This document shows, in pieces, positions 14,476-63,817 of a DNA stretch of 64,000 nt. A program made the position numbers and the translations under genes. Source of the stretch: Sphaerolaimus hirsutus (lineage: Eukaryota; Nematoda; Chromadorea; Monhysterida; Sphaerolaimidae). How positions within the stretch are numbered: the first letter of the stretch is position 1; every line of letters starts with the position of its first letter. Location of the stretch: NCBI GenBank assembly GCA_964036195.1, contig OZ038454.1, positions 2,232,001 through 2,296,000 on the forward strand, written 5' to 3'. A model generated the notes under the pieces. It was given only the letters and a program-made list of their open reading frames with translations. It had not been told where the DNA came from and searched no databases.

Positions 14476-15450
14476 ACATGATACTCTACAAATAGATATG
14501 ATTTATGTCTTCAGCTGGCAGACAGCCAACCGAAAACTTATGAACCGACGTCTGCCCACCCCACTCACCCCGACTCTGCACCGGTGCAGTCAGCTGCAGT
14601 TCACTGCGCTGCGGTGATGAAGTGTTACCTCCATAGAAAAATGTAGGGTCTAATGCAGAGTTGCGAAAGTGTATTTACACTTACCCGAAATACCTGGGTA
14701 AATGGGTATTTATATTTACACTTACACTTACACTTTCATAAAATACCCATGCACTTTTTTACACTTTCCTGGGCAAAATACCCAGGTACAGAAAGTGTAT
14801 TTTTTTTCTTTCAGATGGCCCTGTTTTATGCTTTTGAGAAAGCATAAAATAGGGTCATGTACAAAAATGCATTGAATGTAGAAAATATGGCAAATGTACA
14901 AACTAGCCTTTGATCTACAACCTTTGATCAGTACTCATGGCATTCTACAGTTTCATCATACTTTTGTAAAAAGGACAAGATCAATGGAAGTTCACCAACT
15001 GGACACAAAGTCAACTTTTGCATTGACATTAGCTGCATGTCCATTCTTGCATTTGAACAGTGTGTATCGCATTGCTTAATCAGTAAAACATCAACACTGA
15101 AAAACTGCCATTATTAGGGAACTTCATACCACTACAGTATTTGTTACAGTCTGAAATGTTTCATAAAAGGCTGTAAAATGTGAAATAATGCATGAAAATG
15201 ATAAATAAATTGATCTAAAGGTGAGAACAGCGGTGTTTTCTAATGCTCAACCGTGAGAGCTCTTTCTAAAAAAATCTTTTACACTTACACTTTTTTTGCA
15301 CTTTCCTAGGTATTTTTAAAATACCTTACACTTTTGGTATCCATACTCAAAATTTGGAAAGTGTATTTACACTTACACTTACACTTTCCAAAAATACCGG
15401 TATTTTAACAACTGTGGTCTAATGTCGCCCGAGTATACTTCCACGATTTA
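14476..15450. repeat. dispersed repeat (TATTTATAGATATGATTTATGTC type) with hAT insertion
   Basis: Bases 14476-14655 plus 15425-15450 match 30620-30845: 'gatatgatttatgtctt', 'ctggcagacagccaacc', 'gtgttacctcca', then 'aatgtcgcccgag'. Copy 1 is split by the hAT element 14656-15416. Copy 2 shows the uninterrupted site. No gene is seen. Confidence 0.7.
14656..15416. mobile_element. hAT-like palindromic element, TTACAC subfamily
   Basis: Ends CAGAGTTG / CAACTGTG with a perfect 8-bp duplication GTCTAATG (14648-14655, 15417-15424). Both termini are arrays of TTACAC-type words (ACTTACACTTACACTTTC). The terminal scaffold (GTATTTAC..TTACCCGAAATACC) is the same as in the TTTACG subfamily. It is about 760 bp, with no transposase. 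Confidence 0.88.
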
Positions 15451-15459
15451 ACCCCTGCC

Positions 15460-15620
15460 CAACGATGGCAAAAAAAAGATTCGAAAATTCGAAAACATTT
15501 TCGAATTTTCGAATTTTTTAGGACTTTTCGAATTTTTATTGCACCCCTAGAAAAAATACTTAAAATCGATTTTTTTCTAGAAAAATTCGAAAACGTTTCC
15601 GAATTTTCAAATCTTTTTCC
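15460..15620. repeat. TTCGAA-word element end
   Basis: Begins AACGATGGCAAAAAAA followed by reiterated ATTCGAAAA / TTTTCGAAT words. It is one end of the family seen complete at 30345-31630 and 60899-62058. The other end is not found here. Confidence 0.65.
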
Positions 15621-15811
15621 TATTTTTGGTTGAAAACGCATTAAAAATTGCAGAAACGCAATCCAAAACATCAATTTTACATGAAGTTTTTATAGCGGTA
15701 GAACAATAAATGTGATCAGTGCAAGTTGGGGAAAAAACAACATTCAACTCAAATGACACAACAACATAATACAAGATTTTACCTTCAATATATCCTAAAA
15801 TTAGTCCCAAG

Positions 15812-16373
15812 TAGGGTGTCAACTTTCCGTTTTCCATTTTCCGTTTCCGCTTTCCGCAGGCAAATTTTTTTCCATTTCCGTTTCCGTTTTCCGGCTGCTA
15901 ATTTTTTTTTCCGTTTCCTTTTTCCGGCTCATTTTCTGTTTTCCGGCTAAATTTTCAGTTTTTCCAGCTTTTTTCCATTTTCCATTTCAATTGTCTGTTT
16001 TTCAAACTTTTTCCACTTTCTAGCTCAAGTTTTCTGTTGCAGCCAAACTGGTAAACGCGAAATTTTTCTTATTCTAGCGAGATTTCTGCAAAATTTTTTA
16101 TTTCCGGATAAATTTCAGCAAATTTTTTTTTGTTTCTGGCAAAAGTTCAGCAAATTTTTTTCCGATTCCGGCATAATTTCAGCAAATTTTTTCCATTTCT
16201 GGCATACTTTCAGCAAATTTTTCCGTTTCTGTTTTCTGGCCTTTCATTTTTCCATTTTCCGTTTTCCGGCAAGTGCCAAAATTTTTCTGTTTCTGTTTCC
16301 GTTTTCCGGCAAGTGCCAAAAATTTTCCGTTTACGTTTCCGTTTTCCGCCAAAAAGTTTTTGTTGACACCCTA
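15812..16373. mobile_element. TTTCCG-word palindromic element
   Basis: Ends TAGGGTGTCAAC / GTTGACACCCTA. The interior consists of reiterated TTTCCG words alternating with GCAAATTTTT blocks. Flanks GTCCCAAG and GTCCAAGG are an imperfect 8-bp duplication. A sister copy at 34459-34987 has a perfect duplication, so hAT affinity is likely. Confidence 0.75.
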
Positions 16374-16387
16374 GTCCAAGGGAGTTA

Positions 16388-16825
16388 CCGTATTACCTCG
16401 AATTAACCCCCCCCCCCTTGAATTAACCCCCCCCCCCCTCGAAATACCCCCCCCCCCTAAATTTTAGCTGAGGAAATAATAAACCCCCCCCCCTCGAAAT
16501 ACCCCCCTCCCCTAAAATTGAGTGTAACGTGAACGTACATGACAAATACCGCAGTTTGTGATCTGTACAATGCAGAACACACGTTTAAAACTGATGATTG
16601 AGTGATGTTAGGGAAAGATTTATGCGTATATACAGTTATATATGCCTATAAACACATATACATCTATGTAATTGTTTGATTTTTCTACGTCTGCGTATGG
16701 GGAATTTCCGAAAATTCTGGCGAAATAATAGACCCCCCCTCGAATAAACCCCCCCTCGAATTATCCCCCCTCAAATTTTGCTGGCGAAATAATAAACCCC
16801 CTGGGGGTATTTCGAGGTAATACGG
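16388..16825. mobile_element. TA-flanked CCGTATT element with C-runs
   Basis: Termini CCGTATTACCTCGAATTAACC and GGTATTTCGAGGTAATACGG between TA dinucleotides. The arms are runs of C punctuated by TCGAA/TCGAAATA words, around a ~190-bp unique centre that is nearly the same as in 19630-20053. Confidence 0.8.
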
Positions 16826-17070
16826 TATTCTTGTCAGACTTTTTGACTGGTGAGTATTTGAGGTGGTGGGAGTTATTCAAGGGGAGCACTTATTTTCTAA
16901 GCACCAAAAATTACGCCAAACACTAAGCCATGGCACTTTTTTAGCAAAATAGGACCAAAATTTCCATGGTGCTTTTTCATCACTAGTCAAGTTATATTAA
17001 TATACAAACTTGTCAAATTTTACACAAAATGTCAAAAGTTCAGTATTACAATGTTTTCAGGTAAATTGAC

Positions 17071-17861: not shown

Positions 17862-18300
17862 CACTCCCAGACCCTGTAAAAAGCCCTGTAAAATGTCGAA
17901 TGTCATACAAAGTGTCAAAAGTTATGAAAACACGTTTGCCAGTTTGCAGGGCATTTTCCTTTTGACATTTTACAGGGCTTTTTACAGGGTCTGGGATGGT
18001 GATGTGAAAGCGCCATGGCGCTGGCGCCTGGCGCTAGCGCCAAAGCAAAAAGCGCCATGGCGCTTTTGGCGCTTGGCGCTAAAATGCTGTGGCGCCATTG
18101 GCGCTTTGCGCCGTGTTTCCGAAAAGCGCCATGGCGCTTTTGGCGCTTGGCGCTACTTTCCAGTGGCGCCATTGGCGCTTGGCGCCATTTTGCTGTGGCG
18201 CCATTGGCGCTTGGCGCTAGTTCCGGAAAAGCGCCATGGCGCTTTTGGCGCTTGGCGCCAAAAGTCTGGCGCTTTTTACATCACTAGTCTGGGAGTGCCC
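17862..18300. mobile_element. CCCAGACCCTGT palindromic element interrupted by a GGCGCC-word element
   Basis: The left terminus TGCCACTCCCAGACCCTG is mirrored by GGGTCTGGGAGTGCC once the insert at 17997-18286 is removed. The arms contain TGTAAAATGTC and ATGCAAAGTGTC-type words and fold back on each other. Relatives are at 19256-19440, 29126-29312, 30166-30344 and 31200-31370. Confidence 0.7.
17997..18286. mobile_element. GGCGCC-word hAT-like element (290 bp)
   Basis: Ends TGGTGATG / CATCACTA, with a perfect 8-bp duplication GTCTGGGA (17989-17996, 18287-18294). The whole body is made of GCGCCATGGCGC, TTTTGGCGCTTGGCGCT and close variants, so either strand can fold extensively. No coding capacity should be read into the open frames it creates. 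Confidence 0.88.
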
Positions 18301-19145: not shown

Positions 19146-20216
19146 ACTGTGCATCGAAGGAAGCCAAGGCAAAGGCAGACCTTGACCAGCTGATAGCCAG
19201 CGGCGCCATGGTCGACACATTCCACATGCCAGAGTGCACCCCCGATGGTGGGTGGGGCTGGGGGCAGTCCCAGACCCTGTAAAATGTCAAGTGTCATGCA
19301 AATTGTCTAAAGTCGTGGAAAATGCCCTGCAAAATGGCAACGAGTTGCCATTTTGCAGGGCATTTTCCACGACTTTTGACACTTTGCATGACATTTGACA
19401 TTTTCCAGGGCTTTTTACAGGGTCTGGGATTGCCACCAGGACTCAGTGTGATTGGACTTACCTATCAACTTATCACAATTTTGGCAAATTCATCAACATG
19501 TGACATTTTTGACACAAATTTTTCCTTCAAAAATGGTGAAACCGAGTCTAGATACCATCTCCAGGCTCGACTCAACTTTCAAACTTTTGGACTTATCAAC
19601 TTTTACAAGACGACTTACCTATTTATATACCGTATTACCTCGAATTAACCCCCCCTTGCATTAACCCCCCCCTCGAAATACCCCCCCTAAATTTCGGCTG
19701 AGGAAATAATAAACCCCCCCCTCGAAATACCCCCCCTACGATTGAGTGTAACGTGAACGTACATGACAAATACCGCAGTTTGTGATCTGTACAATGCAGA
19801 ACACACGTTAAAACTGATGATTAAATGACATTAGGGAAGGGTTTTTGTGTATATACAGTTATATATGCGTATAAACACATATACATCAATGTAATTGTTC
19901 GATTTTTCTACGTCCGCGTATGGGGAATTTCCGAAAATTTCTGGCGAAATAATAGACCCCCCCTCGAATAAACCCCCCCCCCCTCGAATTATCCCCCCTC
20001 AAATTTTGCTGGCGAAATAATAAACCCCCTGGGGGTATTTCGAGGTAATACGGTACTCACCATGCAGGTCTCCTATACAAGCGTGAGCAATGCATGGTGG
20101 GCATAATGAGTGCATGCTGGTGTGTTGACCCGGTGACTGGCGAGGAGGAGGAGGGCACTAGACTGTACGGCCCCGAGTTTCACAACAGACCAATTCCCTG
20201 CGGTGCTGTGGTCTGA
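19146..20216 (+). CDS. thyroglobulin type-1 domain protein, last two exons
   Basis: Exon 19146-19247 (acceptor CTACTCCCAG, donor GATG/GTGGGT) encodes the first half of the domain: a Cys, a helix with KEAKAKADLDQL, then MPECTPDG. Exon 20068-20216 (acceptor CACCATGCAG) continues in the same phase (G|GT) with YKREQC and the hallmark CWCVDPVTGEE..GTR, then a last Cys and a stop. The order C..PECTPDG..QC..CWCV..C is the thyroglobulin type-1 repeat, an extracellular disulphide domain that often inhibits cysteine proteases or binds partners. The intron is packed with two palindromic elements (19256-19440, 19630-20053). Upstream exons are not identified, so the parent protein is unknown. Confidence 0.78.
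19256..19440. mobile_element. CCCAGACCCTGT palindromic element
   Basis: Near-perfect foldback: GGCAGTCCCAGACCCTG at the left, CAGGGTCTGGGATTGCC at the right, with internal AAAATGTC, TGCAAA and GCCCTGCAAAATGGCAA words mirrored around the centre near 19335. It lies directly after the donor site of the first thyroglobulin-domain exon. Confidence 0.75.
19630..20053. mobile_element. TA-flanked CCGTATT element with C-runs
   Basis: Termini CCGTATTACCTCG..., inverted at the right end, with TA on both sides. The centre closely matches 16388-16825, suggesting recent amplification. It ends 14 bases before the second thyroglobulin-domain exon. Confidence 0.82.
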
Positions 20217-30344: not shown

Positions 30345-31630
30345 TAACGATGGCAAACCCTCCAAAAAAAAGTATTTAAATTTTTAAGTGTTTTTTCCAA
30401 AATGAGTTTTTGAATTTTCGAATTTTTCCTGAAATGAATTTTCGAATTCCAAATTTAATTTTTAATTAATTTAATTTAATTTAATTTTCAAATCTTTTTT
30501 GGCAATTTTCGAATTTTTTTTGGCTATTTTCAAATGTTTTCAAATAATTTTTGAATTTTTTTGTAAAAGTATTGAATCTGAAGTTTTAAATGAAGAATTT
30601 GGACTGTTTTGGACGTGGCTATACTCGGCAGATGTGATACTCTACAAATAGATATGATTTATGTCTTTGGCTGGCAGACAGCCAACCAAAAACTTGTGAA
30701 CCGACTCCCCACTCCACTCCACTTCATCCCAACTCTGAACTAATTCAGTGAGCCGGAAGTTCACTGCCAACTGCAATTATGACATCATGATGGAGTGTTA
30801 CCTCCAGAAAAATGTACAGTGTAATGTCGCCCGAGTGTAGCACACTGAGCGTACTCAGTGCATACAGTGCTAACTTCACAAGATACAGGTAAATACTTCT
30901 CAAACCACTCTTCTTTGATAATATCTTTGATCACATCTCTTTTATACTCCAGTAACATTACACCCTGCATGCGTGGTTCCCGCTGGAAGCGTGCCAAATA
31001 TTTTTCTACACATGTGATTTTTATAAAAAGTTCATCTCAGTTATAACGCGATATGTTAACTTATTCACAACAATGATTTTTTTCATATTTTATACAAAAA
31101 TAGCATGCTTTGTGATTATTGGCACACTTCCAACGTGAGACATAAATCAGGCAGAGTATCATGTTCACCGAGTATACTTATAAATATGTGCAGTTCCTAT
31201 GGGCCGTCCCAGACATCTGTAAAATGCTCTGTGAAATGTCAAATGTTATGCAAAGTGTCTAAAGTCATGGAAATGCTGTGGAAAATTGCAAATATGTTAA
31301 CCATTTTCCCGGGCATTTTCATAACTTTTGACACTTGCACATTTTACAGGGCATTTTACATTTCAACGTTTTTGGACGTTTTTTTGTTTTGTTTCGCTTT
31401 CTCATACGCACCGCGTACCAAATGTCAATTTATTGAGCATGTTGAACTTAAGAGTTAGTTTTGTTGCCTTGAATTCCCTGAAAAATTTGAAAAGTATTTT
31501 CAAATTTTCGAATTTTTTGAAAAATAAATCGATTTTTAAGTGTTTTTTCTAGGGGTGAAATAAAATTTCGAAAATTATGAAAAAATTCGAAAATGTTTTC
31601 GAATTTTCGAATCTTTTTTTGCCATCGTTA
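30345..31630. mobile_element. TTCGAA-word hAT-like element (1286 bp)
   Basis: Ends TAACGATGGCAAA / TTTGCCATCGTTA with a perfect 8-bp duplication CCGCCAGG (30337-30344, 31631-31638). The arms are reiterated TTTTCGAATTTT words, with shared inner blocks (CACCCCTAG/CTAGGGGTG, GCCTTGAATT) also in 60899-62058. A dispersed repeat (30620-30845) and a CCCAGAC element (31200-31370) are nested inside. No transposase. Confidence 0.85.
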
Positions 31631-31887: not shown

Positions 31888-33077
31888 TAGTGATGTAAAA
31901 GCGCCATGGCGCTTTTGGCGCTTGGCGCTATGATGTTGTGGCGCCATTGCCGCTTGGCGCTAGTGTTTTATAAAGCCCCAAAAAAGCGCCAAGTAGTACA
32001 AAAAAGAATCATTTTTCTTATGTAAAAAGACCTTACCTACATGAGTTACATGTAAGTAAATGTGTTACTGTAAGTGTGTTACAGTAAGAACAAACCCTCT
32101 ACTTGCTTATTTTGTAAACCATGTCCATGCAATTGCAAGGATATTCAAAACTTGTACCAAAAAATGGGCCTACACGCAATAGTTTTTAACGACATTTTAT
32201 GTCAACTGGTTTTCATCCAAATTCAAGGCTTCATGACGAGCCGACGAACAGCGTTCAAATGCATAGTGTTGCATTTAGGGTGTCAACAAAAACTTTTTGG
32301 CGGAAAACGGAAACGGAAACGGTAAAAAATTTGCACTTGCCGGAAAACGGAAACGGAAACGGAAAAAAATTTGCACCTGCCGGAAAACGGAAAATGGAAA
32401 AATGAAAGGCCGGAAAACGGAAGCGGAAACGGAAAAATTTGCTGAAATTATGCCGGAAACGGAAAAAATTTGCTGAAATTTTGCCGGAAATGGAAAAAAA
32501 TTGCAGAAATTTATCCTGAAATCAAAAAATTTGCAGAAATCTTACTAGAAATAGAAACAATTCACATAATTGAGAACCTGCATGCATTGTTTACCAGTTT
32601 GGCTGAAACAGAAAACAGATAATTGAGCCAGAAAATGAAAAAAAGTTGGAAAAACAGACAATTGAGCTGGAAAACGGAAAAAAAAGCGGAAAAACTGAAA
32701 TTTTAGCCGGAAAATGGAAATTGAGCTGGAAAAACGGAAACGGAAACGGAAAAAAAATTTGCAGCCAGAAAACGGAAACGGAAACGGAAAAAAAATGAAT
32801 TGGGATGGAACCAGTTGACAAACAAATTGATAGCACTGCATTTGCATCTCTGCACTTTATGCAGCAAAATTTTTTGGCGCTGGCGCTATTGGCGCTTGGC
32901 GCTATCATCCCCTGGCGCCATTGGCCCTTGGCGCTACGGTCTAGAAAAGCGCCATGGCGCTTTTGGCGCTTGGCGCTATTTTGCTGTGGCGCCATTGGCG
33001 CTTGGCGCTCGCATGCCAAAAGCGCCATGGTGCTTTTGGCGCTTGGCGCCAAAAGTCTGGCGCTTTCTACATCACTA
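31888..33077. mobile_element. GGCGCC-word hAT-like element (1190 bp) with nested TTTCCG element
   Basis: Ends TAGTGATG / CATCACTA, flanked by GGCATAAC and GGCATGAC (7 of 8 match). GCGCCATGGCGC-type words form the outer arms (31905-31950 and 32875-33062). The middle contains a TTTCCG-word element starting at 32276 (TAGGGTGTCAAC) whose opposite end is eroded near 32800. The 32030-32270 segment is unique. Confidence 0.8.
32276..32800 (-). mobile_element. TTTCCG-word element, one end intact
   Basis: Begins TAGGGTGTCAACAAAAACTT and continues with reiterated CGGAAA words, the reverse orientation of 34459-34987. The far end lacks the GTTGACACCC terminus. Nested in a GGCGCC-word element. Confidence 0.7.
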
Positions 33078-33236: not shown

Positions 33237-33579
33237 CACAGCAAAAAACGGGGGGTTGATGCGTCGTGAAGCGTCTTGAAGTGTCTTCACGGCAACACTT
33301 CCCGACGCTTCACGAAGCTGGTCGGCGCTTCCCGGCGCTTCACGAAGTTGAACGTGAAGACACTTCACATCACAGATGTGCGTCAACGATGCTGCACAAT
33401 GTTTGTGAAGTGTCTTCACTGTGTCACTGAGCGCGCTTCACGAAATTTTGGCCATCGTGAAGCTAGGTGAAGTGTGTGGAAGACACTTCACCAAAAATCT
33501 CATGAAGCGTGTTGAAGCGTGTGGAAGTGTCTTCACAGAGGCCGCTTCACGACGCATCACACCCCCATTTTTTGCTGTG
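33237..33579. mobile_element. CTTCAC/GTGAAG-word palindromic element
   Basis: Ends CACAGCAAAAAACGGGGG / CCCCCATTTTTTGCTGTG, flanked by TAT on both sides, so the duplication is TAT or TA. The 343-bp body is a dense mosaic of GTGAAG, CTTCAC and GACGCTTCACGA words. No coding content. Confidence 0.8.
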
Positions 33580-34458: not shown

Positions 34459-34987
34459 TAGGGTGTCAACTTTCCGTTTTCCGTTTTCCGTTTCCGCTTT
34501 CCGCAGGCAAATTTTTTTCCGTTTCCGTTTCCGTTTTCCGGCTGCTAAATTTTTTTTCCGTTTCCGTTTTTCCGGCTCATTGTCCGTTTTCCGGCTAAAT
34601 TTTGGGTTTTTCCGCTTTTTTTCCGTTTTCTGGTTCAATTATCTGTTTTTCCAGCTTTTTTCACTTTCCAGCTCAATTTTTTGTTTTCTGTTTCAGCCAA
34701 ACTGGTAAACATGCATGCAGGCTCTTAATTATGTGAATTTTGCCCATTTTTAGCAAAATTTCTGCAAATTTGTTTCCGTTTCCGGCAACATTTCAGCAAA
34801 TTATTTCCGTTTCCGGCATATATTTGGCAAATTTTTCCGTTTCCGTTTCCGTTTTCCAGCCTTTCATTTTTCCGTTTTCTGGCAAGTGCAAAATTTTTTT
34901 CCGTATCCGTTTCCGTTTTCCGGCAAGTGCAAAAATTTTTCCGTTTCCGTTTCCGTTTTCCGCCAAAAAGTTTTTGTTGACACCCTA
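34459..34987. mobile_element. TTTCCG-word hAT-like element (529 bp)
   Basis: Ends TAGGGTGTCAAC / GTTGACACCCTA with a perfect 8-bp duplication GTGGCGAG (34451-34458, 34988-34995). The interior is a series of TTTCCG words separated by GCAAATTT spacers. It sits 22 bases before the start codon of the BED-finger gene, so it lies in its 5' region. Confidence 0.9.
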
Positions 34988-35009: not shown

Positions 35010-35900
35010 ATGGATCATTCATTCGGCACCGCTGAAATCCCAGCTGGGGATAGGCTGGAGCGCGGGCATCCGATACGTTTGGGCTTGTTTTATAGTTTTA
35101 TATGGCGACAATTTGTTGACAAACAGCAGACTCCCGCTGGCGAAAAGTATCAATGCAGCCATTGTAGGAGATGGGTGAGTGCAGCCTTTTTTGATTTGTT
35201 TTCTACAGGGATGTTCGATAAAATGCACAGTTTTATTCAATGTGGTTCCGATCAAATTGTCACCAAACATTTGCAAACTAATATGTTCACTTTCATTGCA
35301 GCTGAAAGGTGGTGCCGGCATAGACAAAAAAATGTTCAATATTTCTGGCGGTGACAGTGAGTGACAGCTATTTGAGAGGCGGTGACACCTCATATAATAA
35401 CTTTACTACTGCAGGTAATTTGAGAGATTTTTTCACAAGTTTCAAGTTCTACAAGAGTTTTCACTCAAAAAAGGCTTATTTTTGCTCCATTTAGCCTATT
35501 TTCACCTTCACTTTTGCTTATTTTCACCTATTATTTGCCTATTTCTGCTTTCTACTTCCAATCAATTTAAATGGCAGTGATTGTCACCGCGATGAGACGC
35601 TATTTTGTTGCGGTGACACCCGGAATCTACGCGATGACAATCACTGCGTCACCGCCACATTTTTCGTCACTGGGTGCCGGTAACCTCGTGAAAAATGTGC
35701 AGCGAAAGCACAAAACTGCGTACACGGGCTTTGTCAAAGCAACGCGAGGAGCTATGGAAGCTTCACAAATTGGTCAAAGCAGTACAGAACCTGATATCAG
35801 AGCACTTTTGCAGCAGAGAACCGAGGCGAACAGTTTGGCGGTCAGTCATGTAGTGATTGAAAAGCGCCAGAAAAAAGGGCGCCATTTCGGGGGGGGGGGG
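35010..35900 (+). pseudogene. BED-type zinc-finger gene start, exon 2 interrupted by a hAT element
   Basis: Exon 1 (35010-35174) runs from ATG through IRLGLFYSFIWRQFVD to QCSHCRRW and a GTGAGT donor. Exon 2 starts at 35302 after TTCATTGCAG, in phase 0, with LKGGAG. It is cut at 35318 by the element 35319-35672 and continues at 35681 with NLVKNVQRKHKTAY. Removing the insert and one target copy gives CxxC plus a final RKH with the spacing of a BED finger, a DNA-binding domain common in hAT transposases and chromatin proteins. The usual first ligand His (often KHL) reads Asn here. Downstream the frame runs to about 35900 (RGAMEASQIGQSS, DIRALLQQRTEA). No transposase core is seen, so it may be a domesticated or decayed hAT gene. 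Disrupted as it stands. Confidence 0.65.
35319..35672. mobile_element. GTGAC-word hAT-like element inside an exon (354 bp)
   Basis: Ends CATAGACAAAAAAATG / CATTTTTCGTCACTG, flanked by a perfect 8-bp duplication GGTGCCGG (35311-35318, 35673-35680). The interior carries GGTGACA, GTGAGTGACA and GTCACCG words near both ends and a unique centre. It splits a coding exon. Confidence 0.88.
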
Positions 35901-43365: not shown

Positions 43366-46300
43366 TTAGTCAGAGTGAGCATTCTTGTCTGCTGCACATT
43401 TAACCACATGTACATAAAGCAGGAAAGGAACCCATAACATGAGGGCTGCGATGGAGGCACCCATGAGCAGGTGGAATATTGGCCAGGTGCCAAAGCACAC
43501 CATGAATGAGTGACTGGTGAATTTGCTGTAGTATAGTCCCAGAATGACTGCGCTTTTGCACACCTCTGTCCAGGCAACATGTGTCATTCTGTGGGGGGTT
43601 TTTGTTATTGAATTTGTGTTATTGTCATTTGTTTTGTTTTTTGGCTTTTTTTGTGACTTTCATGGTTTAGTACTGTTTTTCCAAAGAGCATATATTATTA
43701 TCTGACCCTTGAAATATTGAATTAAGTTTCCATCAACTTTTACCTTTGATCAATAGATGCATTCATCACCACAATTGTTGCCAGCATATTTGCCATCCAA
43801 AGCATTTTGCCATGTTCCTGCAATGAGAATGCAATATTAGGGCCTTCAGATTATCATAGCATTTTTTTCCACTGCAAAGCATAATTTATGTTTATGTATT
43901 TACATAGTTAATGATGTTTTTCCACTTTTCCATGTTCTATATTGGTGAATAAAGTGTAAAAGATAGTGCAAGTGGAACAGCAAATATTGAAAGCACCGGA
44001 TGCCAACCTTCAACAGATGTGGTCTTGACAATACACTGACACCAGTGAGCACAACTACCTGTATGCTTGCATACACAACCAGCCAATTCTGCACCCACTT
44101 GCCATAGTGTTTGTGTTTCACTGGCAGAATGCCAAGCACTTCTTTTGATACTGGCCATTGCTGCCGCCTCTCAGTTTCAGCATTCTAGGAGGTGTTGAAT
44201 TTGAATGTTTAACAACTTATGTAACAATTTTAAAAATACATGATATATCTGCTTCCTGTAAACATTTGAGTGGCAAACTTGAACCGAAACCAACTTCAAT
44301 TAAGACAACTGTTTTTGAGCAATTCTTCTTTTATTAATTTTGACGCCACCATGGACTGTTTCATTCAGAAAAATGCATAAAATGCTGTCTGCCATGTATA
44401 AAAATGAAGAATGTGCACTTGCAATTACCAGGATGTTTTGATCATCAGTCAGTTGTATCTCATGATCAGGAAACACAAACAGGGCCTTGATTTTATTCCA
44501 TATGCCAACCTGCTGCAGGGCCACACTAAACACATTGATATGCTCATAAACCTGAAATGAGAGTATTTACATGTACAAGTTATTGTCATAATCCATACCA
44601 CTTAGAGTACTCATCTACTGCATCTACCACAAGTGAAATGCATTCAATTATTTGATAAGATCAACATTTTTCACATAAATGTGATGCCTCAATGTTTTTC
44701 ACATCAATGTCATCAAATATCAACATCCTACCTAAGTCACTTGTCAAATACTGAATGTCAATTTAAGTAAATACAAATGATGTCAAACAGTGAACATATT
44801 TACAATGGGTCAGAACTTAATAAATACAAGGCACAATGGATCAGAAAAAAAGTGTTTATCAAATGCTCAATGAAAGCATATCTAATTCAAGACTTGCTAC
44901 TTAAAGTTACAAATACTCAGGCTCAGACTCAAATGTCAAACCTCATTATACACAGGATCTTTGCTGCCTTCCTGTACAACCAGCCCATAGTGTACTGGCC
45001 CAGCAGTGTCAAACTCAGTGTAAGTGCCAAAAAGTCTATCAAAAATGGATAGGACACCACCAAAGTTTTTATTGAAGTAGTGAGCATTCCTTCCATGGTG
45101 AACTTTGTGGGCCTCTGAGGTCATGAAAAGCCATCCAAGCCACTTTGGACTTGAGGGCAGCACCAGGTTAATCTGTAAATTGATTTTGGTAATTAGTATT
45201 TACATCACTCCTGAGGAAATTAGATTTTTCAATCTTCTTGTGCTCAATTTGCTGAAAAATTCCTGTGAGTGTAGAATAACATTAATTATTTCAAAAATTG
45301 GCCATCTTATTAGCATAATCAACCTGAGTTTAAAACTAAATTGATGAAAATTTAAATTTAGGAAAAATGGTTGAAAAACTTACATTGGTGTGGGTGTAGA
45401 TCGTGTGATATAAGGCTATCAATAGCTGAAACATGACAATTTTCGGTGGGATGAAGTATGTTACAATATAAAGCGTTATTGCCCGATAATACACCTGCAA
45501 AATGTAAAAATCATGATTAAAGCATCCTCAAAAGTATCTCAAACATCCACGTGAGATTTAGGTATCAACTGTCTATTTTGAAGATGTGGTGCAACAGCAC
45601 TGGGTAACAACGGCAAACCCGGTGGAATTTTTTTTTAATTTCCAATGTTTTCTTTCTAAAAATGACTTTTCGAAATTCGATTTAAAAAAGGTTTCAAATT
45701 TTAAAACTCAATTTTCAAATTTTAGAATCTTTTTGGAATACTTTTTGAATTTTGAATTTTTTCACTAAATTACCTATTGCATTTTCCTTGTGAATTTTTA
45801 TACAGATATTCTTCCATTCCAAACTTCCAAGCTGTTACTGCAGACACTTCTGTACATTTTTTCTGCACCTAAAAATATACCTATTCAGGTGTGTGTGTGT
45901 GTTGTGTATAGGTTTAAAAATATACCTACCGTACTTCCTCGAAATACCACCCGGGGGTGATTGTTTCAGCGTTAGGATTTTGAGGGGGGTTAAACGAGGG
46001 AAGGGGGTATTTCGAGAGGGGGCGTATTTTCCTTCCAGAATTTTTTTTAAATTTCAGTACTAAATTGTTGTTTGTAACATACGCAGTCATAGAAAAATGC
46101 AACAATAACCGCTTTATATAAGAGTCTATGGAAGTCTAAGTATGTAACACTGTTCTAAGGTAACAATTTATTGTTTTTAACGTGTGTTTTGCATTGCCCG
46201 AACCACAAACCGCAGTTTTGTCATGAATGTTCTCTGTACACCAGAGTTGGTCAAATACTGGTATTTTTGGAAAACGTAAACGTAAACGTAAATACCTTTT

Positions 46301-49300
46301 CCAAAATGAAAGTATAAATACTAAAACGTAAGGTATTTTTAAAATACCTGGGAAAACGTAAAATAAAACGTAAACGTAAAAAAATTGTGACCATATTTCA
46401 TATAATAGAAGGGTGCCCTTCTATTTTTCACCAACTTTCTATTATGGAGACGCCGTCTGTTGGAAGCTGCCCTTCTATTTTTTTGCCAGTTTTTCAATCA
46501 ATTTTTCACGTTCTGTCAACGTTTTCCCAAGTGTTATGTCACAAAAACATGATGTTATGACGATTCATTGAGTTCTTTCAACATTTGATCGTCAAATAGG
46601 ACAAAATCAATCCACGAAAGCCACTAGATAACAGCATCTGCTGACTTTTTTTAAGCATTTGGCACAATTCGAGTTTGGGAAATGATACATAATATTTTAT
46701 TCTGCACTGCAGGTGGGGTCGAACTATAGAGTAATTTAAATATTGAATAGGTATACTTTTTTTGAAAATACGGCTTCTGTGGAAGAAAAGTGTGCGCTGG
46801 CGCGCAAAAATTTTTTAAGTTGTCGAAAATTTTTGGCGGAAGTTGCATTTTGCTGAAAAATTTTTGGTCTCACAACGTTTTTTACGTTTTCTCTGGTACC
46901 TGGGTATTTCGGTCAGGAAAACGTAACAAAACGTAATGGTATTTTATGAAAACGTAAACGTAAACGTAAGTATAAATACCCGAATAACCGGGTATTTCGG
47001 GTAAACGTAAATACGTTTTTGCAACTCTGCTGTACACTCAATTTGGGGGGGGGGATTTCGAGGGGGACAAATAAATTCATAGTGGCCATTTTGGGGGGGG
47101 GGTACTTCGAGACGGGGGTATTTCGAGGAAATACGGTGTACACAGTAGAAGTAGCATTAGTAGAACAATGTGCACTAACTACATGTGTTAAGCCATTCCG
47201 CATTGAAATCATACTGTTCATGTGTTCAGCTGCATGGTGGTCCTTGTGCCAACGCCAAAACAGGGGAACATCTGAAATTGTGAAGGGTGTTGTTGTATTA
47301 AAGTATGCTTTTGAGGCGTCCACTTGTAAAGGCGATACCTGCAAAAAGTTAATTTTGAGAAAATCGCATATTAAGTTTTGTTTGCAATGCGCGTCCAATG
47401 GCCTACTTAAGTTATCTTCCAGTCTGTCATAAAGTTCCAAATGTTGGTAAAAACTGTAAGATATTCCGCCTGCATTTTACATGCATTTGAAAAAAAAACA
47501 TTTCCAAATCTATGAATTTTAGAATTTTACTAGAATAACATCGAATTTGAGTATTTATTGTGTTTTTTTCTGCTCCAAACAAATTAGAAAACTCACGGAA
47601 AAAAATGTTTGTTTGCCTTCTCAGTTTCAAATGATTTCAAAATGGAGGATTTATGCTGCGATTACAGCTCGGGCGTAAAATTGAATGGGCATAAATTGAT
47701 TTTGGGTGTAAAATTTATTACAGATGGATAACGATACAACATTGTTATTTCAGTCAAAGAAAGCATAGATGCAGAAGTTTCTTGTGTCCAAAGCTCATGA
47801 GTTAATTTTAATCGTACTGGGAGTTGTGAATTTTATGAATTATGAATTTTAGCACAATTTTTCCAAGTATGCACTGTAAGTTGCGTAAAATTAGGGCATA
47901 AAATAAAAAAATGTGCACAAAAATTCATAACTTCTAGTACAATTAAAATAAACTGATGAGCTTTTGGACACAAGCAGCATCTGCATGCAGAGTTGTACAA
48001 ATACTGGTATTTTTGGAAAACGTAAACATAAATGTAAATACCTTTTCCAAATCAGAAGTATAAATACTAAAACGTAAAGTATTTTTTAATACCTGGGAAA
48101 ATGTAAAATAAAATGTAAATGTAAAATTTTTATTAAGTGCTTCCACTGTGAGAGGACATAAAAAGCCATGTTTTTACAACATCACAGTTGTTTCTATGAT
48201 CTCCATCCACATTATCTGCTTTTATTTTATCTAGAGGGATGAAAAATAGTGAATTTTTGGAGGAACGAAAAATGAGACAGTGATGCTGTCATTATCACCA
48301 CCTGTTTTTCACTGTGATGACATGTCGTTTTGTTGCATCATGCATTTTTTGTCGTCATCACCAGACTCATTCATTGACAGTTCAGTATGCAATTTATCAA
48401 TTTATTTTGAAGACATTTGATTGATGGGTAAAACCAGCGTGCACCAAATTAGCATTCACAAAACGATCACACAGACCGCGCAATGAAAACCCACCTCAAT
48501 TCAGTTCTTATATTTTCAATACCTAAATGGTATTTTTTGTGTACATATTTACATAGGTGAGTGTTGCGGAGTGCGAACAGAAAGCATTCTGTCTAATGTA
48601 TATTCCTTTGGGACCTTTTACACATTGTTTGAAAGTGCATTTCTGAGAATAAGCTATTAAATGTTTTCTCAAATAACGTTTTTCACGTTTTCTCTGGTAC
48701 CCGGGTATTTTGGCCAGGAGAACGTAACAAAACGTAATGGTATTTTTTGAAAACGTAACTGTAAACGTATATATAAATACCCGAATAACCGGGTATTTCG
48801 GGTAAATGTAAATACGTTTTTCCAACTCTGTCTGCATGTGCGCTTTCTTTGACTGAAATTACAACACCATATCTTTATCCATTCACCTGTAATTAATTTT
48901 GTGCCCAAAAATTAATTTTACGTCCAAAAATTAATTTTACGCCCTGTCAATTTTACACCCGAGCTGTAATTGCAGCATTATGGATGATTATATTTATGAG
49001 GAATTCTATCTTTGTGAAAATCGACATAATTGTTTACAATATTACACTTATTGTGTGAATGAACAACAATGTTTAAAAAAGTTTAAAGAACTCACTATGA
49101 GCAGCTCTGTGTCCCAAGTAGAATAAAAATTCAACGATAAAGTAATAGGCAGCAAATAGACCATAGAATTGAATGTTACTATTGCAATCAATATGGATTA
49201 TGCTATTTTTCTTATACAACGAATGGTAGACGCCGAAGATATCATCATTAACGCCAGGACCAGGAGAGATGATAAATAAACTTATTTGTGTGACAGGCAT

Positions 49301-50957: not shown

Positions 50958-51893
50958 CCGTATTTCTTCCAATACAACGGCATACCTCCAGAGGGGTACC
51001 TCCAATAGAACGACCGGTAAAAATTTCCTTGGAACAATGCCAAAATACAATAATATTTGAGATGCCGAGAACATCAAAGCATAGTTGTTAAAACGTGTTA
51101 ACTTTTACTCGATAAATACGTATACTCAAGTACAGAGTAAATACGTTTACTCTGAAACAAAGTACTTGTACTCACTTGACGTATACTTTTTGAAAGTGCT
51201 CGAGTACAGAAAACGTATTTCTGGTAGACTTTTTATAGAGCTTTTCAAGGCATTGAAGGGAAAAAAGGGAGATGATATGCTAAAAATAACGGAAAATAGT
51301 CGAAAATGTATATATAAGCACAGACATATCCAAAAATTACTTGAAATAGTGAAAAAAGTCACGATAATTTGTGATTTTAAGCGAAAATTGGGGTGACTTT
51401 TTTCAAAAATACTCACGTTTACGTTTTCTGTGGGCAAAAGTACGTTTACTCACGTTTATTCATGAGTAAAAGTAAAAAATTCTGCTTTAAGTTTTCTGTA
51501 CTCAGGGGGTGAGTTTAAAATTACTTTACATTTTTGTAGACTTTGAAAAAAGTTCGGTAGTTTTAACAACTCAGCATCAAAGGTACACCGACTTTTGATT
51601 TATGGGTTGTTTTCACATTTGGTTTTGTTTGAATTGATGTTCTGGTATAGGTAAAAACGTTTCTCATATTTCATCAATAACACCATGTTCACATTAAAAA
51701 TTTGTGGAAAAAATTGGTGAAATATAGAAAGGAACGATCCAATTTCCAATAAAACGGTAGGTAATTGACGAACAAATAAAACGGCACCCTCCAATAAAAC
51801 GGCATCCTCCAATAGAACGGCACCTCCGATAGAACGGCAGGTAAAAAGTTGATGAAAAAATGGAACGGCACTCTTATATTAGAATAAATACGG
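50958..51893. mobile_element. TA-flanked CCGTATTTCTTCC element with nested hAT element
   Basis: Ends CCGTATTTCTTCCAATACAACGG and inverted CCGTATTTATTCTAATATAAG, with TA flanks. The arms repeat AATAAAACGGCA / CCTCCAATAGAACGGCA words. Split by the hAT element 51080-51574. Confidence 0.8.
51080..51574. mobile_element. hAT-like palindromic element, TACTCA subfamily (495 bp)
   Basis: Ends CATAGTTGTTAAAA / TTTTAACAACTCAG with a perfect 8-bp duplication CATCAAAG (51072-51079, 51575-51582). The words are TACTC, GAGTA and CACGTTTAC in both orientations. Sister copy at 58193-58709. Confidence 0.88.
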
Positions 51894-58063: not shown

Positions 58064-58192
58064 CTTAGATTGGTCGGTCAACTACAAGGTGCTGTACTAT
58101 GATTCATCAGCAAAAAGCATGCAATCAATTGACTGTGGTGCTCGAACACCCCAGTACGAATGGTCATCAACTAAATACAAGTTGCTGTACTA

Positions 58193-58709
58193 CAGAGTTG
58201 TTAAAAGTACTGAACTTTTTTCAAAGAAAACGTAAACATAAAGTATATTTTTATCACTCACACCTGAGTACAGAAAACGTAAAGTAAGAACTTTTTACTT
58301 CTACTCATACGTGAGTAAAATACTTTTTTCATTGGAAAACGTAAAAGTGAGCTTTTTTCAAAAATGTGGCTTCAAATTTCACTTTAAATCATGTATGTTC
58401 ATACTTTTTGCCCATTTTCACCTTCAAATTAACTAGTTCATGGGCTTTTTGGCCAATTTTCAGCTTTTCTTGACAATATTTACACTAAATTTTTACTATT
58501 TTGCTCTACTTTGAGTTTTTTCTTACTTTTTCCCTAAAAAAATCAAATATAACAAACTGTACTAAATACATTATCGGTGCTCACGTACTTTTAAAAATAT
58601 GTGAGTAAGTGAGTACTGGTATTTTTCACGGGAGGAACGTAAACGTATTTACGCAGTACTCAAGTATCTGTATTTCTTGAGTAAATGTAATCACGTTTTA
58701 TCAACTATG
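58193..58709. mobile_element. hAT-like palindromic element, TACTCA subfamily (517 bp)
   Basis: Ends CAGAGTTGTTAAAAG / TTTTATCAACTATG, flanked by CTGTACTA and TTGTACTA (7 of 8). The words are GTGAGTA, TACTCA and AACGTAAA. Confidence 0.82.
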
Positions 58710-59612: not shown

Positions 59613-60048
59613 CCGTATTTCCTCGAAATACCCCCCCCCTCGAAATACCCCCCCTCAAAATGGACACTATGAACTTATAAACCCCCCCCCCCCCCTCGAA
59701 ATACCCCCCCCCCCAAATTTAGTGTATAGAGAACGTAAATGACAAAGGCTGCGGTTTGTCATCTGGGTAATGCAAAACACACGTTAAAAACGATGACTCT
59801 GTTATGTGAGAAGAGTGATTATACGTCTACACACTTATACAAGTCTTTAGAGTCTTACAAATGGCGATTTTTGTTGCATTTTTGACGTCTGCGTACATTT
59901 CAGACGACAATTTAGTACTTGATTTTCAAAAAATTTCTGGCGAAATAATAAACCCCCCCTCGAAATACCCCCCCCCCTCGTTTAACCCCCCCTCAAAATT
60001 CTCACTCTGAAACAATAAACCCCCCGGGGGTATTTCGAGGAAATACGG
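59613..60048. mobile_element. TA-flanked CCGTATTTCC element with C-runs
   Basis: Ends CCGTATTTCCTCGAAATACC / inverted between TA. C-run arms with CTCGAAATA words and a unique centre (GGCTGCGGTTTGTCATCTGG ...) matching the reverse of 17272-17717. Confidence 0.85.
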
Positions 60049-60219: not shown

Positions 60220-60566
60220 GTTGGCGCCATTTTGGCGCCTGGCGCCATTTTCTCTGGCACCCTTTTGGCGCTGGCGCCATTTTTTCAGATGGCGCCGTGG
60301 CGCCATTTTCTCTGGCGCCCTTTTGGCGCTGGCGCCATTTTTTCAGTTGGCGCCGTGGCGCCATTGGCGCCTGGCGCCATTTTTCCTGGCGCTTTTCCAT
60401 CACTACACACCTGATTAGTGATGTAAAAGCGCCATGGCGCTGGCGCTTGGCGCTAGCGCCAAAGCAAAAAGCGCCATGGCGCTTTTGGCGCTTGGCGCTA
60501 AAGTCTTGGCGCTTTTTTCATCACTACACCTGACGCCATTTTTCCTGGCGCTTTTCCATCACTACT
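60220..60566. mobile_element. GGCGCC-word element with a second copy inserted in it
   Basis: The outer element is GGCGCC words from 60220 to the terminus CATCACTA at 60559-60566; its left end is eroded. An inner 111-bp element (60416-60526) with ends TAGTGATG / CATCACTA is flanked by CACCTGAT and CACCTGAC. Members of the family thus insert into each other. Confidence 0.78.
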
Positions 60567-60619
60567 CATGAGTCAAATTGAGTTGAGTAGAGTTTGAGCA
60601 CTGGAACCAACTTACTTAC

Positions 60620-60684
60620 CTCTGTTCCATTTTGTGCAGTGAGCAACCATTCACCAGGGCGCAGTTCCGATGCTCTCACATTTG
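60620..60684 (-). CDS. orphan internal exon of an unknown gene
   Basis: A 65-base open stretch on the minus strand between a good acceptor (TTTCTTCACGCAG) and a consensus donor (GAG/GTAAGT). It encodes VRASELRPGEWLLTAQNGTE. It lies between repeats with no partner exon recognised; the hydroxylase gene further down has the same orientation but no matching segment is known. Confidence 0.45.
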
Positions 60685-60898
60685 CTGCGTGAAGAAATGC
60701 GATTTACACTATTTATTTATTGTGGAGAGGGGTAGAAAATGACTACACATATTTTTTTATGTGACTATCTGATGTCTAGAATATTCATTAGAGAAGTCGC
60801 CGACTTTCAATATGCTAACCATATTTCTTCTAGTAGTAAAATTGCCATTCTATTTTTGTCGACTTTTTACCTGCTCTTCTCTGATGGTGTTGTTCAAC

Positions 60899-62058
60899 TA
60901 ACGATGGCCAAAAAAGATTCGAAAATTCGAAAACATTTTCGAATTTTCGAATTTTTTCGGAATTTTCGAATTTTTATTTCACCCCTAGAAAAAACACTTA
61001 AAAATCGATTTATTTTTCAAAAAATTCGAAAATTCAAAAATTCGAAAATAGTTTTCGAATTTTTCAGGCAATTCAAGGCAACAAAACACATTCTTAAGTT
61101 CAACGTGCTAAATAAAGCGACAATTGATATGTGGCGCGTATGAAAAAGCTAAACGTAACAAAAAAAACATTGAAATGTCATCCGCGGCGGAAGAGGCGGA
61201 CTTCGACACAATCGTTTTTATACCGTATTTCCTTGAAATATCCTCCCCCCTCAAACTACCCCCCTCAATATTTGCCCTATGAATTTATAACCCCCCCTCG
61301 AAATACCGCCCCCAAATTTGGTGTATAGAGAGAACGTTTGTGCGGTTTGTTATCTGGGAAACACGTTCAAAACAATGACTGTGTTGCGTTAGAACAGGGT
61401 TTGTACTGTCTACGTACTTATATAAGTCTATAGAGTCTTATAAATGGCGGTTTTTATTGCATTTTTTACATCTGTGTTACTTACAAAAAAACAATTTAGC
61501 ACTGGGATTTCGAAAAATTTCTGGCAAAGTAATAGACCCCCAGGGGGGGGGGGGGTAATTCAAGGAAATACGGTATTTGATGCCAATATTTTATTTCATG
61601 CCAATATTCTATTTGATGCCAATATTTTATTTGACACCGATTTTTCAATTGTTGTTTTTATTGCCTTTGCTGCGTTGGTGAATTAAATGTGTCAATGTGT
61701 GAATTAAATGAAGAAGTTGGACACTGGTCCGTATAACTCCTTCCACCATTTTTAATGCTAAATTATGGTAAAAATAAGGTTATAAAAACTGAGGAGAATA
61801 TGAATACAGTCCAAATAATGTGTTTAAATCTTCAGATTCAACATTTTTCCAAAAAAATTCGAAAATTATTTGAAAAAATTCGAAAACTGGCCAAAAAAAT
61901 TCGAAAATTGCTAAAAAAGATTCGAAAATTCTAAAATTCGAAAATTAAATTCGAAATTCGAAAATTAATTTGGAGAAAAATTTGAAAATTCGAAAATTAA
62001 TTTTAGAAAAAACACTTAAAAATTTAAATACTTTTTTCTTGGGGGTTTGCCATCGTTA
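60899..62058. mobile_element. TTCGAA-word hAT-like element (1160 bp) with nested C-run element
   Basis: Ends TAACGATGGCCAAA / TTTGCCATCGTTA with a perfect 8-bp duplication TGTTCAAC (60891-60898, 62059-62066). The arms consist of ATTCGAAAATTCG words. A CCGTATTTCC element is nested at 61223-61573, flanked by TA. Shares inner blocks with 30345-31630. Confidence 0.87.
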
Positions 62059-62237
62059 TGTTCAACTGAAGGGTGATGTTCTATTGTTTTTGTGAGTGCA
62101 AAAACGTGCAAAAACCCGCCATTCTATTGGAGGTGCCCTTATATTGAGGGAATACTATTCTATTAGAAGAAATATGTTGGATAATGTTATGTTGAAATAT
62201 GAAACCGTTGGAAAAATCTTACCATATTACCCAGGGG

Positions 62238-63817
62238 TAGTGATGGAAAAGCGCCATGGCGCTGGCGCCTGGCGCTAGCGCCAAAGCAAAAAGCGCCATG
62301 ACGCTTTTGGCGCTTGGCGCTAAAACACTCTGGCGCCATTGGCGCTTGGCGCCGCGATCTCAGAAAGCGCCGTGGCGCTTTTGGCGCTTGGCGCTATTTT
62401 CTAGTGGCGCTATTGGCGCTTGGCGCCAGCATTTTAAATGGCGCCAAAAAAGCGCCAACCATAATGATAAAAATGATGAAAATACAGGTAAATACATTGG
62501 TACTCCACTCTTCAGTTGCAACAATTTTGAGGACAATTCAATATTGTCTAATATTTAGATTTTTATTGGACTTAACATACTGATACTGACTTAGAATGAT
62601 ACAATACAAAGAATATGGATAAATAAATATTAGCAGAGGCGCTGAAATGTGTTCATTGTACTTACTTAATTGATTTTGAAAAACATCTGACTTAACTGTG
62701 TTGCCAATGTGTCCAGTCGTTATCATTATCCTTCACTTTACTATTTTTTTAAGTTTTACTTAAAATTTTATCGGTATAGAAAATTACAGAGCTGTGAAAA
62801 ACACAATACCGTATTTTCTCGAATTACCCCACAGGGGGTTTATTTTTCAGAGTGAAAATTTTGAGAGAAAAACGTGAAAAATGCAAAAATAACCACCATT
62901 TATAAGTTTTTACAGCCTTATATAAGGATGTAGATGGTATAAACAATGTTCTAACGTAAGACAGTAAGTGTTTTGAACGTCTGTTATGCATTTCCCGGAC
63001 CACAAATTCATAGTGCCCATTTTGAGAGGGGTATTTCGAGGAAATATGGTAAATTCTGAAACAATTCCTCTCACTTTAATAGCTGACCTTTAAGCCAAGT
63101 GAGGAACAAATCATTCCCATTGATAACTCCCCTGGTTAGCTATGTGGGGAACAAATTACCGCCCCCTTGAATAGCTCCCCACACATATAATCTGACTAAA
63201 AAATCTCTGGGAATGAGTTGATATGCTACAATACAAAGTAAGCCACATTATAATGGTTGATTGAACATTTCCTACAACTATATCTTGTCGATGCATACAC
63301 TAGTTTATTAATGAAATTTGAATAATTTAGTAAACTCATAGCAGCCTTGAATGTATTTGATTCTTCTGAATGAGTCAATGAAATCATATGATTCCAATAT
63401 TCAATACTGTTCAGAGTTCATTTATGAGTTTGCTAAATTAATAATTAGCAAACTTAATTTATAAGTGAACTGTCAGTAAACTAGTGTGTGTAGTGCTTTT
63501 TTCAGTTAAAGTTCAATCAATTAAACACTACAACATTGGGAGTATTTACGGGTACCAATTTATGTCACATTAATGTTCTCATTATTCTGCAAACGAATTG
63601 CCGAACAATTCTTTGGCGCTGGCGCTATTGGCGCTTGGCGCCATCATCGTCTGGCGCCATTGGCGCTTGGCGCCGAGGTCCAAAAAAGCGCCATGGCGCT
63701 TTTGGCGCTTGGCGCTATTTTGCTCTGGCGCCATTGGTGCTTGGCGCTGGGGGACGGAAAAGCGCCATGGCGCTTTTGGCGCTTGGCGCCAAAACCTTGG
63801 CGCTTTTTCCATCACTA
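62238..63817. mobile_element. GGCGCC-word hAT-like element (1580 bp)
   Basis: Ends TAGTGATG / CATCACTA with a perfect 8-bp duplication CCCAGGGG (62230-62237, 63818-63825). GGCGCC words fill both arms (62250-62455, 63612-63805). Two TA-flanked elements lie between: 62819-63049 (CCGTATTTTCTCGAATTACC) and about 63297-63495 (ACACTAGTTTA ends). It is itself inserted into a CCGTATT-type element that resumes at 63826 and leaves the window. Confidence 0.87.

Follow-up and report, generated by a model that had tools for sequence, protein, structure and literature searches.

Private reiterated words in the ends of hAT-type transposons of Sphaerolaimus hirsutus, and sister families that differ in the word at every compared site

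A 64,000-nucleotide stretch of the nematode Sphaerolaimus hirsutus (assembly GCA_964036195.1, contig OZ038454.1, positions 2,232,001 to 2,296,000 of the forward strand), hereafter the window, carries many transposable elements that reiterate a private short word in both orientations. The assembly holding the window comprises 348 Mb in 762 contigs. We propose, with a probability of roughly 0.7, that the words are subterminal repeats bound by hAT-type transposases, each family bearing many copies of the site of its own mover. The subterminal-repeat structure was demonstrated for the TTTACG, TTTCCG and TTCGAA elements and is likely for GGCGCC. For the words GTCCCC, CTTCAC, GTAAAATT, GTGAC and CCCCCTCGAA it may apply, only by analogy. 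In one family, whose terminal inverted repeat (TIR) is CAGAGTTG, the sister dialects ACGTAA, GCGTAA and GTGTAA differ at the word sites, as though the elements had twice been given a new docking address.

The hAT dimerisation domain PF05699 had 28 matches in a profile search of the genome. At 17/28 loci the domain sits between TIRs of three families with target-site duplications (TSDs; 16 at 8/8 and one at 7/8): TAGGGTGTCAA with TTTCCG (9 loci), YAACGATGG with TTCGAA (6) and CAGAGTTG with TTTACG (2). The same ends and words as in the window were thus found around hAT pieces in transposase-bearing relatives. Both the 8-bp TSD and PF05699 between the same TIRs place the three families in hAT, by the C-terminal part of the transposase only. 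Seven transposase pieces were run against Pfam and 7/7 matched PF05699, two below the curated cut-off. The piece of the ACG element L012 has four solved relatives, all transposases and two named Hermes; the best is a Hermes chain (E 5e-9). Identity to this piece is 33–39% for the TTCGAA pieces and 32–38% for the TTTCCG pieces, and mutual identity among the pieces of the three families is 29–44%. A preliminary description made from the letters of the window had called the element families unrelated. This was wrong, as the TTTACG, TTTCCG and TTCGAA elements bear homologous transposase pieces. Its lead that the words resemble the binding hexamers of the hAT transposase Ac is supported for at least three of its nine words. 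Judged by these pieces, the word follows the transposase between hAT families.

Word positions were plotted for 15 of the 17 transposase-bearing elements. Only 4/345 words lay in the middle 60% and the rest lay in the outer fifths, so that the earlier statement that the interior is filled with the word is not general; the GTCCCC copy of the window has words in the centre as well as at the two ends. A comparison with transposase-bearing elements was made for five window copies. The element ends matched, and all or part of the middle was lost. The ends of 14656-15416 are 83% and 94% identical to L085, a locus with a transposase piece, and both ends of 46242-47029 are 93–94% identical to the hAT-bearing L012, with no match shown for the middle. 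In 34459-34987, positions 1-194 and 237-529 match 1-200 and 833-1120 of the transposase-bearing L028 at 89% and 86%. Both ends of 30345-31630 are 80–83% identical to the hAT-bearing L026, two shorter matches lie mid-element, and 60899-62058, its nested insert excluded, has two blocks 79–87% identical to both ends of the hAT-bearing L022 and L026. These palindromic copies look word-filled because they are hAT ends that retain little or none of the coding middle.

The word density was checked against shuffled controls. Nine words were scored in 18 element/word rows, with 300 dinucleotide-preserving shuffles per row; the boundaries used were set by eye, deviate by a few bases from those set later, and enclose nested elements in some spans. 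The word count exceeded the maximum of the 300 shuffles in 16/18 rows, so the private words are truly reiterated. Two rows failed. One is 47988-48830, an old TTTACG copy; the other is a short GGCGCC copy in which AGCGCC/GCGCCA are the most frequent words. The commonest word of the GGCGCC elements is GCGCCA, with 31 copies in one element and 44 in another, and that of the better TTTACG copy is AAACGT (17 copies). Hand-marked word-bearing spans make up 30% of 14656-63817. The word GTGTAA/TTACAC of the first element in this span, 14656-15416, was missing from the preliminary list.

In the TTTCCG family, AAACGG occurs 14–23 times each in eight elements. Tandem units of 37–40 bp were found inside TTTCCG elements, and word clusters were therefore duplicated in this family. 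The stretch L038 1209-1697, considered as a TTTCCA dialect, was rejected because it is a decayed mix (4 TTTCCG, 14 TTTCCA, 8 TTTCTG). A further hAT family is seen at L019 1086-2474, with TIR TAGGGTTCAAACGA, a TSD of 7/8 and 29 ATATCG (TATCGATA) in its ends; at L016 a hAT domain likewise lies amid ATATCG words, with no convincing ends. The element L020 1816-2646 has YAACGATGG ends and the TSD GCCGTCAC (8/8), and words like AAACACAG and AAACTC replace TTCGAA. It may represent another dialect within the TTCGAA family.

The dialects of the CAGAGTTG family could be compared site by site. The GTG element and the TTTACG element align over about 140 bp per end, and AACGTAA in one is systematically matched by AGTGTAA in its counterpart. 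The genome holds 4,314 matches to GGAAANNNTAANNNTAANNNTAAATAC, a pattern that leaves three triplets free, and 0 to its reverse. Among 100 matches listed (all on contig C1), 35 had ACG three times, 24 GCG three times, 19 GTG three times, and 22 other combinations. Pure triplets thus made up 78/100 listed matches, against a column-permutation mean of 10.5 and maximum of 23 (10,000 permutations). On its own, this concordance might reflect copies of three masters, and the comparison of the masters is the stronger point. Thirty-six copies, 12 per dialect, were fetched because their three tandem words were pure; the remaining 12 words played no part in the choice. Both ends were present in 24/36 copies, with TSDs of 8/8 in 24/24, and the 12/36 copies incomplete in the fetched stretch were excluded from later counts. 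The dialect consensuses read ACG, GCG and GTG, respectively, at 15/15 word sites (7 left, 8 right). Outside the words, they differ at 28/241 positions between ACG and GCG and at 17/243 between GCG and GTG. The 24 complete copies carry their own type of word in 112/120 (ACG), 87/90 (GCG) and 140/150 (GTG) cases.

Flanks of the same site in different dialects are 0.88 and 0.85 identical, compared with 0.50 and 0.48 for different sites within a dialect (13/15 sites). Each site keeps its flanks and differs in the word base; therefore, the sites changed where they stand. This bears on the host-level copying that the preliminary description had proposed as the filler of the elements, in which template switching on hairpins or intra-element conversion spreads one word through an element. 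Copying or template switching should bring neighbouring bases along, and it was rejected for the CAGAGTTG family because the word sites keep their own flanks between dialects, at both ends. The scarcity of words mid-element in the 15 transposase-bearing copies also stands against it. Copying could draw on three long palindromes with 93–95% complementary arms, of which only the GTCCCC one bears a listed word, on the tandem units of the TTTCCG elements, and on the central word cluster of the GTCCCC window copy. Unsupported where it was tested, copying is quite unlikely as the general cause; in the GTCCCC, CTTCAC, GTAAAATT, GTGAC and CCCCCTCGAA elements it may still have acted. The preliminary observation was largely right; host copying is unneeded for it and disfavoured where testable.

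The median divergence at non-word, non-CpG sites was 0.036 for ACG (n = 8), 0.029 for GCG (n = 6) and 0.011 for GTG (n = 10), the last set including one outlier at 0.155. GTG is the youngest dialect. A first estimate (left/right: ACG 0.140/0.027, GCG 0.061/0.051, GTG 0.066/0.009) came from a noisy alignment and was superseded. The word of this youngest dialect is without CpG; CpG is present in most words (TTTACG, TTTCCG, TTCGAA, GGCGCC, CCCCCTCGAA and TATCGATA, plus AAACGG of Ac).

The GTG dialect might be merely a CpG-decayed GCG family, and like dialects mutational artefacts. The change from GCG to GTG is a C-to-T change within CpG, GCG words at the loci L107 and L108 have decayed into GTG as well as GCA, and the CpG observed/expected ratio of the window is 0.81. 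However, CpG decay yields GCA too, and among the 150 word calls of the 10 complete GTG copies there are 0 GCA and 0 GCG, so plain CpG decay was rejected as the origin of GTG. The GTG copies are also the least diverged and have exact TSDs. These three observations indicate that the GTG elements moved as GTG. The change from ACG to GCG is no CpG change, and we regard this explanation of the dialects as very unlikely. A strand-specific editing that altered all words together is barely credible. The 15/15 changes share one register with respect to the word, as editing would have it, but A to G and C to T at the same sites would require two processes, and the consensuses keep other C in GC contexts of the same ends.

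Six of the listed mixed-triplet copies were read. Two are GTG copies with one GCG, one is heavily decayed, two are GCG copies with both GTG and GCA, as expected of CpG decay (one without a readable right end), and one is a GCG copy with one ACG and two GCA. No clear half-switched element was found among these six. In the ACG copies, GCG stands in 5/120 words, owing perhaps to decay or to standing variation.

A comparable split was seen in the GGCGCC family, which has TAGTGATG ends. Eleven TAGTGATG pairs were scanned. Seven had TSDs at 8/8 (4 with GCGCCA words, 3 with CGGTGC words) and the remaining 4/11 had 7/8, among them L035 without such words and L030 enclosing other elements. Thirty distinct TAGTGATG ends, counted only if they held at least 3 words in 130 bp, comprised 20 with pure GCGCC, 9 with pure GCACC and 1 with GCACC and one GCGCC word. 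Beneath a shared outer end, the TAGTGATG ends fall into two dialects that hardly mix. An in-place change from GGCGCC to GGCACC is suggested at several aligned sites, in an alignment that is unsafe because the sequence is too repetitive. No transposase was found inside GGCGCC/TAGTGATG elements among the loci examined; at L017 a hAT domain (from 1501) adjoins the TAGTGATG pair 38-1314 and is not within it.

The scan for inverted ends and TSDs covered the window and the fetched loci; repeats of the same duplication and length were dropped, which removed L025, another locus of the contig that bears L024. The preliminary description had given every type clean ends and a target duplication. This held for TTTACG, TTTCCG, TTCGAA and GGCGCC (8/8) and for GTCCCC (9/9). 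For CTTCAC and GTAAAATT the duplications were seen at 3/3, and three bases are weak evidence. None was found for GTGAC with the single end motif tried, and the TA duplication of the CCCCCTCGAA elements is not separable from part of the inverted repeat. Their TA flanks, which would suit Tc1/mariner or pogo elements, prove nothing, because TA was part of the search pattern.

The GTCCCC ends had 746 exact matches in the genome. Among the matches listed, at least nine inward pairs span 42–49 bp in total (L112-L120, contigs C1 and C2). These units are near-perfect palindromes, two GGCTATTTACACAGGTCCC ends face to face with almost nothing between. The duplication was 9/9 in seven of the nine short copies and 8/9 in two; it was 8/9 in L111, a copy of 3,204 bp. 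The short copy L117 is flanked by GGCGCC words. From these palindromes, the GTCCCC family can apparently move without interior words. A 9-bp duplication is typical of Mutator-like elements, and the GTCCCC elements have it. CACTA/CMC elements have a 3-bp duplication and CACTA/CACTG ends. CTTCAC showed 3-bp duplications in 2/2 copies, weak evidence at three bases, and its ends read CACAG, not CACTA/CACTG. PIF/Harbinger elements have a TWA duplication; GTAAAATT has a TTA duplication in one copy, again of three bases and weak. For GTCCCC, CTTCAC, GTAAAATT, GTGAC and CCCCCTCGAA no transposase was found; the ORFs of L111 were read by eye, and no family search backs this negative. In window 49313-62809, a CCGTAT end is common to many elements with differing inner words (CCCCCTCGAA, CCCCCTTGAA, AACGGCACC, CTTCTATTT). 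This group includes copies with TCGAA and with TTGAA words, and mixed copies are common. It looks as if it held dialects, and no dialect claim is made for it.

The words of hAT elements probably changed in the following way. The N-terminal (BED-type) domain of the transposase would read the word. When its binding preference shifted, the elements with the best-fitting sites would have been moved most, and over successive bursts all sites would have followed the shifted preference. CpG decay may supply part of the starting variation, and methylation decay that removes CpG from the words may start some switches. It is tentatively proposed, at somewhat under even odds, that hAT lineages switch dialect repeatedly, with the preference of the transposase changing and about 15 sites following in place, and that the bursts (ACG, GCG and GTG; GGCGCC and GGCACC) are separate addresses without a shared mover.

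The transposase pieces of the CAGAGTTG family were compared with the words around them. The 102-aa piece of L012 had 149 matches in the genome, and the surroundings of 25/149 were read (L080-L099, L100-L104). ACG words accompany the pieces L012, L015, L097 and L098, and GTG words L085 alone. CGCGTA words accompany L094, L095, L099, L100, L101 and L102, with TSDs of 8/8 in all six. Over the shared C-terminal stretch, L012 is 71% identical to L103 (GCG) and 68% to L094 (CGCGTA). A one-to-one sorting of transposase lineage and dialect was expected, and the comparison of the C-terminal pieces does not bear it out. Because these pieces are imperfectly sorted by dialect, the dialect-switch proposal is made less likely. 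Co-evolution of transposase and site within the CAGAGTTG family is a candidate reading for which these pieces, lacking the domain that would read the word, count neither way.

The design itself has known counterparts; Ac, Hermes and VANDAL all offer comparisons. CACTA elements bear subterminal repeats with multiple binding sites, as does Galileo, so that a shared design across superfamilies is unsurprising. No P-type or CACTA transposase was seen here, no search for either having been made. The THAP sites of Galileo, an element of another superfamily, are described in the available passages as multiple binding sites in long or subterminal repeats (PMC3688188). The maize hAT system Ac/Ds, in the part of its source at hand, is alike in its 8-bp TSD, in the many short repeats of the outer 200 bp bound by the transposase, and in its internal-deletion derivatives (PMC3260210). 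Its hexamer AAACGG is identical to that of the eight TTTCCG elements described above. In contrast to Ac/Ds, several families with different private words occur here in one genome, together with sister dialects, and the transposase is known from pieces. Hermes, the solved relative of the transposase piece, also has reiterated short motifs in its ends (PMC10368747); its site differs (AAGT/AAGC), and dialects are not described for Hermes in the passages available. According to a partly available study, hAT-derived DNA-binding domains (CGG-binding proteins, hAT-19 transposases) differ in their preferred motif (CGG, GCGC or AT-rich), and for four hAT-encoded proteins the motif matches subterminal regions of their own elements (PMC8097297). 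These preferences are comparable to the CGG, GCGC and AT-rich words here. That study, as far as its accessible text goes, measured proteins, whereas here the sites are seen differing together between sister families.

The words could also be targets of an element-encoded anti-silencing or regulatory protein other than the transposase, like VANC of the Arabidopsis VANDAL elements. In the accessible parts of two papers, VANC targets are private, short, reiterated noncoding motifs that differ between related families and co-evolve with the element-encoded protein (PMC5735166, PMC10398659), and the words here likewise lie outside coding remnants. However, the words occupy the outer fifths of hAT elements, where the repeats of Ac and Hermes are placed by the passages available (PMC3260210, PMC10368747). 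VANDAL is another transposon group with another protein, and its motifs are described there as evolving by tandem repeat formation, whereas the sites here show base changes in place in hAT elements. A VANC-like reader is therefore rather unlikely. In the titles, abstract beginnings and passages that the literature searches returned, most subscription journals lying outside them, no account of words switching in place in the ends of hAT elements was recognised. The design is known, several private words within a single genome extend it, and, as far as the searches show, a switch in place of all sites between sister families of hAT elements has not been described.

Several findings weigh against the binding of the words by hAT transposases or against the switching of dialects. 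The transposase remnants are C-terminal only, with no BED or catalytic domain recovered, and the binding of the word is what we infer. No BED domain or full transposase was seen in the open reading frames (ORFs) of L008, L040, L085, L094 and L017, which were inspected by eye with no BED family search made. The subterminal-repeat model as it stands does not fit the GTCCCC family, because its units move as 42–49 bp palindromes without an interior. In the available part of the Ac/Ds source, 314/331 Ds1 elements lack Ac hexamers, and no excision was seen for the hexamer-bearing Ds-like elements that were tested (PMC3260210). In Hermes, by the passages at hand, about 70% of activity persisted when the putative BED sites of the left end were mutated (PMC10368747). 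The 36 copies compared were picked for pure triplets, a selection that did not use the 12 non-triplet words. ACG and GCG are unseparated in age. Among the pieces, GTG is represented by one locus and GCG by two, L090 and L103, neither with a TSD, and the CGCGTA words are mostly at one end. The ACG piece L012 is 80% identical to the GTG piece L085 over 49 residues, and only 74% to the decayed ACG remnants L097 and L098.

The elements of the window, with a second CTTCAC copy found at L012, are listed in Table 1.

Table 1. Word-bearing elements of the window (positions counted from its first letter) and one fetched copy.
Element	Position	Strand	TSD or other evidence
hAT non-autonomous element, CAGAGTTG family, GTG dialect (GTGTAA/TTACAC)	14656..15416	+	TSD GTCTAATG 8/8
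Fragment with TTCGAA words and YAACGATGGCAAA-like end	15463..15640	+	6 TTCGAA vs shuffle mean 1.2; right end not seen
TTTCCG-word element, ends TAGGGTGTCAAC/GTTGACACCCTA	15812..16376	+	20 words vs shuffle mean 1.4; duplication approximate, by eye
CCGTATT-ended element, CCCCCTCGAA words	16388..16829	+	Words, end pattern
GGCGCC (GCGCCA) element, TAGTGATG ends	17997..18286	+	TSD GTCTGGGA 8/8; 31 GCGCCA
CCGTATT-ended CCCCCTCGAA element	19630..20055	+	Words, end pattern
TTCGAA hAT element, middle partly kept	30345..31630	+	TSD CCGCCAGG 8/8
GGCGCC element, nested TTTCCG piece (about 32276-32800)	31888..33077	+	TSD 7/8
CTTCAC palindrome, ends CACAGCAAAAAA/TTTTTTGCTGTG	33237..33579	+	TSD TAT 3/3; 14 words vs shuffle mean 0.4
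Second CTTCAC copy	L012 542-915		TSD ATG 3/3
TTTCCG hAT non-autonomous element (contains AAACGG)	34459..34987	+	TSD GTGGCGAG 8/8
GTGAC-word stretch, probably incomplete	35350..35672	+	7 words vs shuffle mean 0.5; duplication not found
GTCCCC palindrome, 474-bp arms	41786..42736	+	TSD ACAAAAGTA 9/9
TTTACG hAT non-autonomous element, ACG dialect	46242..47029	+	TSD CTGTACAC 8/8
GTAAAATT element, interrupted by 47988..48830	47654..48977	+	TSD TTA 3/3
Older TTTACG element nested in GTAAAATT element	47988..48830	+	TSD TCTGCATG 8/8; only 2 intact TTTACG
Diverged CAGAGTTG-family element	51080..51574	+	TSD CATCAAAG 8/8
CCGTATA-ended element, words read CCCCCTTGAA	52267..52679	+	Two ends: 5 and 3 TTGAA, 0 TCGAA
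Diverged CAGAGTTG-family element	58193..58709	+	TSD 7/8
CCGTATT-ended CCCCCTCGAA element	59613..60048	+	Words, end pattern
Short GGCGCC-family element	60416..60526	+	TSD 7/8; 10 AGCGCC
TTCGAA hAT element, nested CCGTATT element	60899..62058	+	TSD TGTTCAAC 8/8
GGCGCC element with nested insert	62238..63817	+	TSD CCCAGGGG 8/8; 44 GCGCCA

The window also holds a palindromic repeat of about 140–190 bp with CCCAGACCCTGTAAAATG-like ends and TGTCA words (17855-17996, 19258-19439, 29129-29321, 30168-30343 and 31202-31359), for which no clear target duplication was seen by eye. Two long palindromes, 53751-54310 and 40107-40516, have arms that are 95% and 93% complementary, with no repeated word noticed. 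A 1,056-aa frame on the minus strand (9691-12858) has reverse transcriptase, RNase H and integrase domains and weak protease matches, and is an LTR retroelement. A 152-aa frame on the plus strand (3178-3636) has a weak globin domain match that is over the cut-off; a protein search with this frame found no relatives at E 0.001. A tblastn search of a 957-aa ORF against phages led nowhere, and an Rfam scan at the gathering threshold gave no match.

The puzzling shared design becomes a testable rule, in which each mover has a single word present in many copies. When sister families differ at every compared site, and always by one and the same base, they offer a natural experiment on a multi-site enzyme changing its specificity, a change that seems hard because all sites must follow. 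The data are also relevant to the retention or loss of movers by non-autonomous elements and to the splitting-off of new transposon families. The 4,314 matches of the three-word pattern could let the switching steps be ordered in time. If the proposed switching is true, the genome would be a dated record of the co-evolution of transposases and their sites, and the private words would be barriers between element families.

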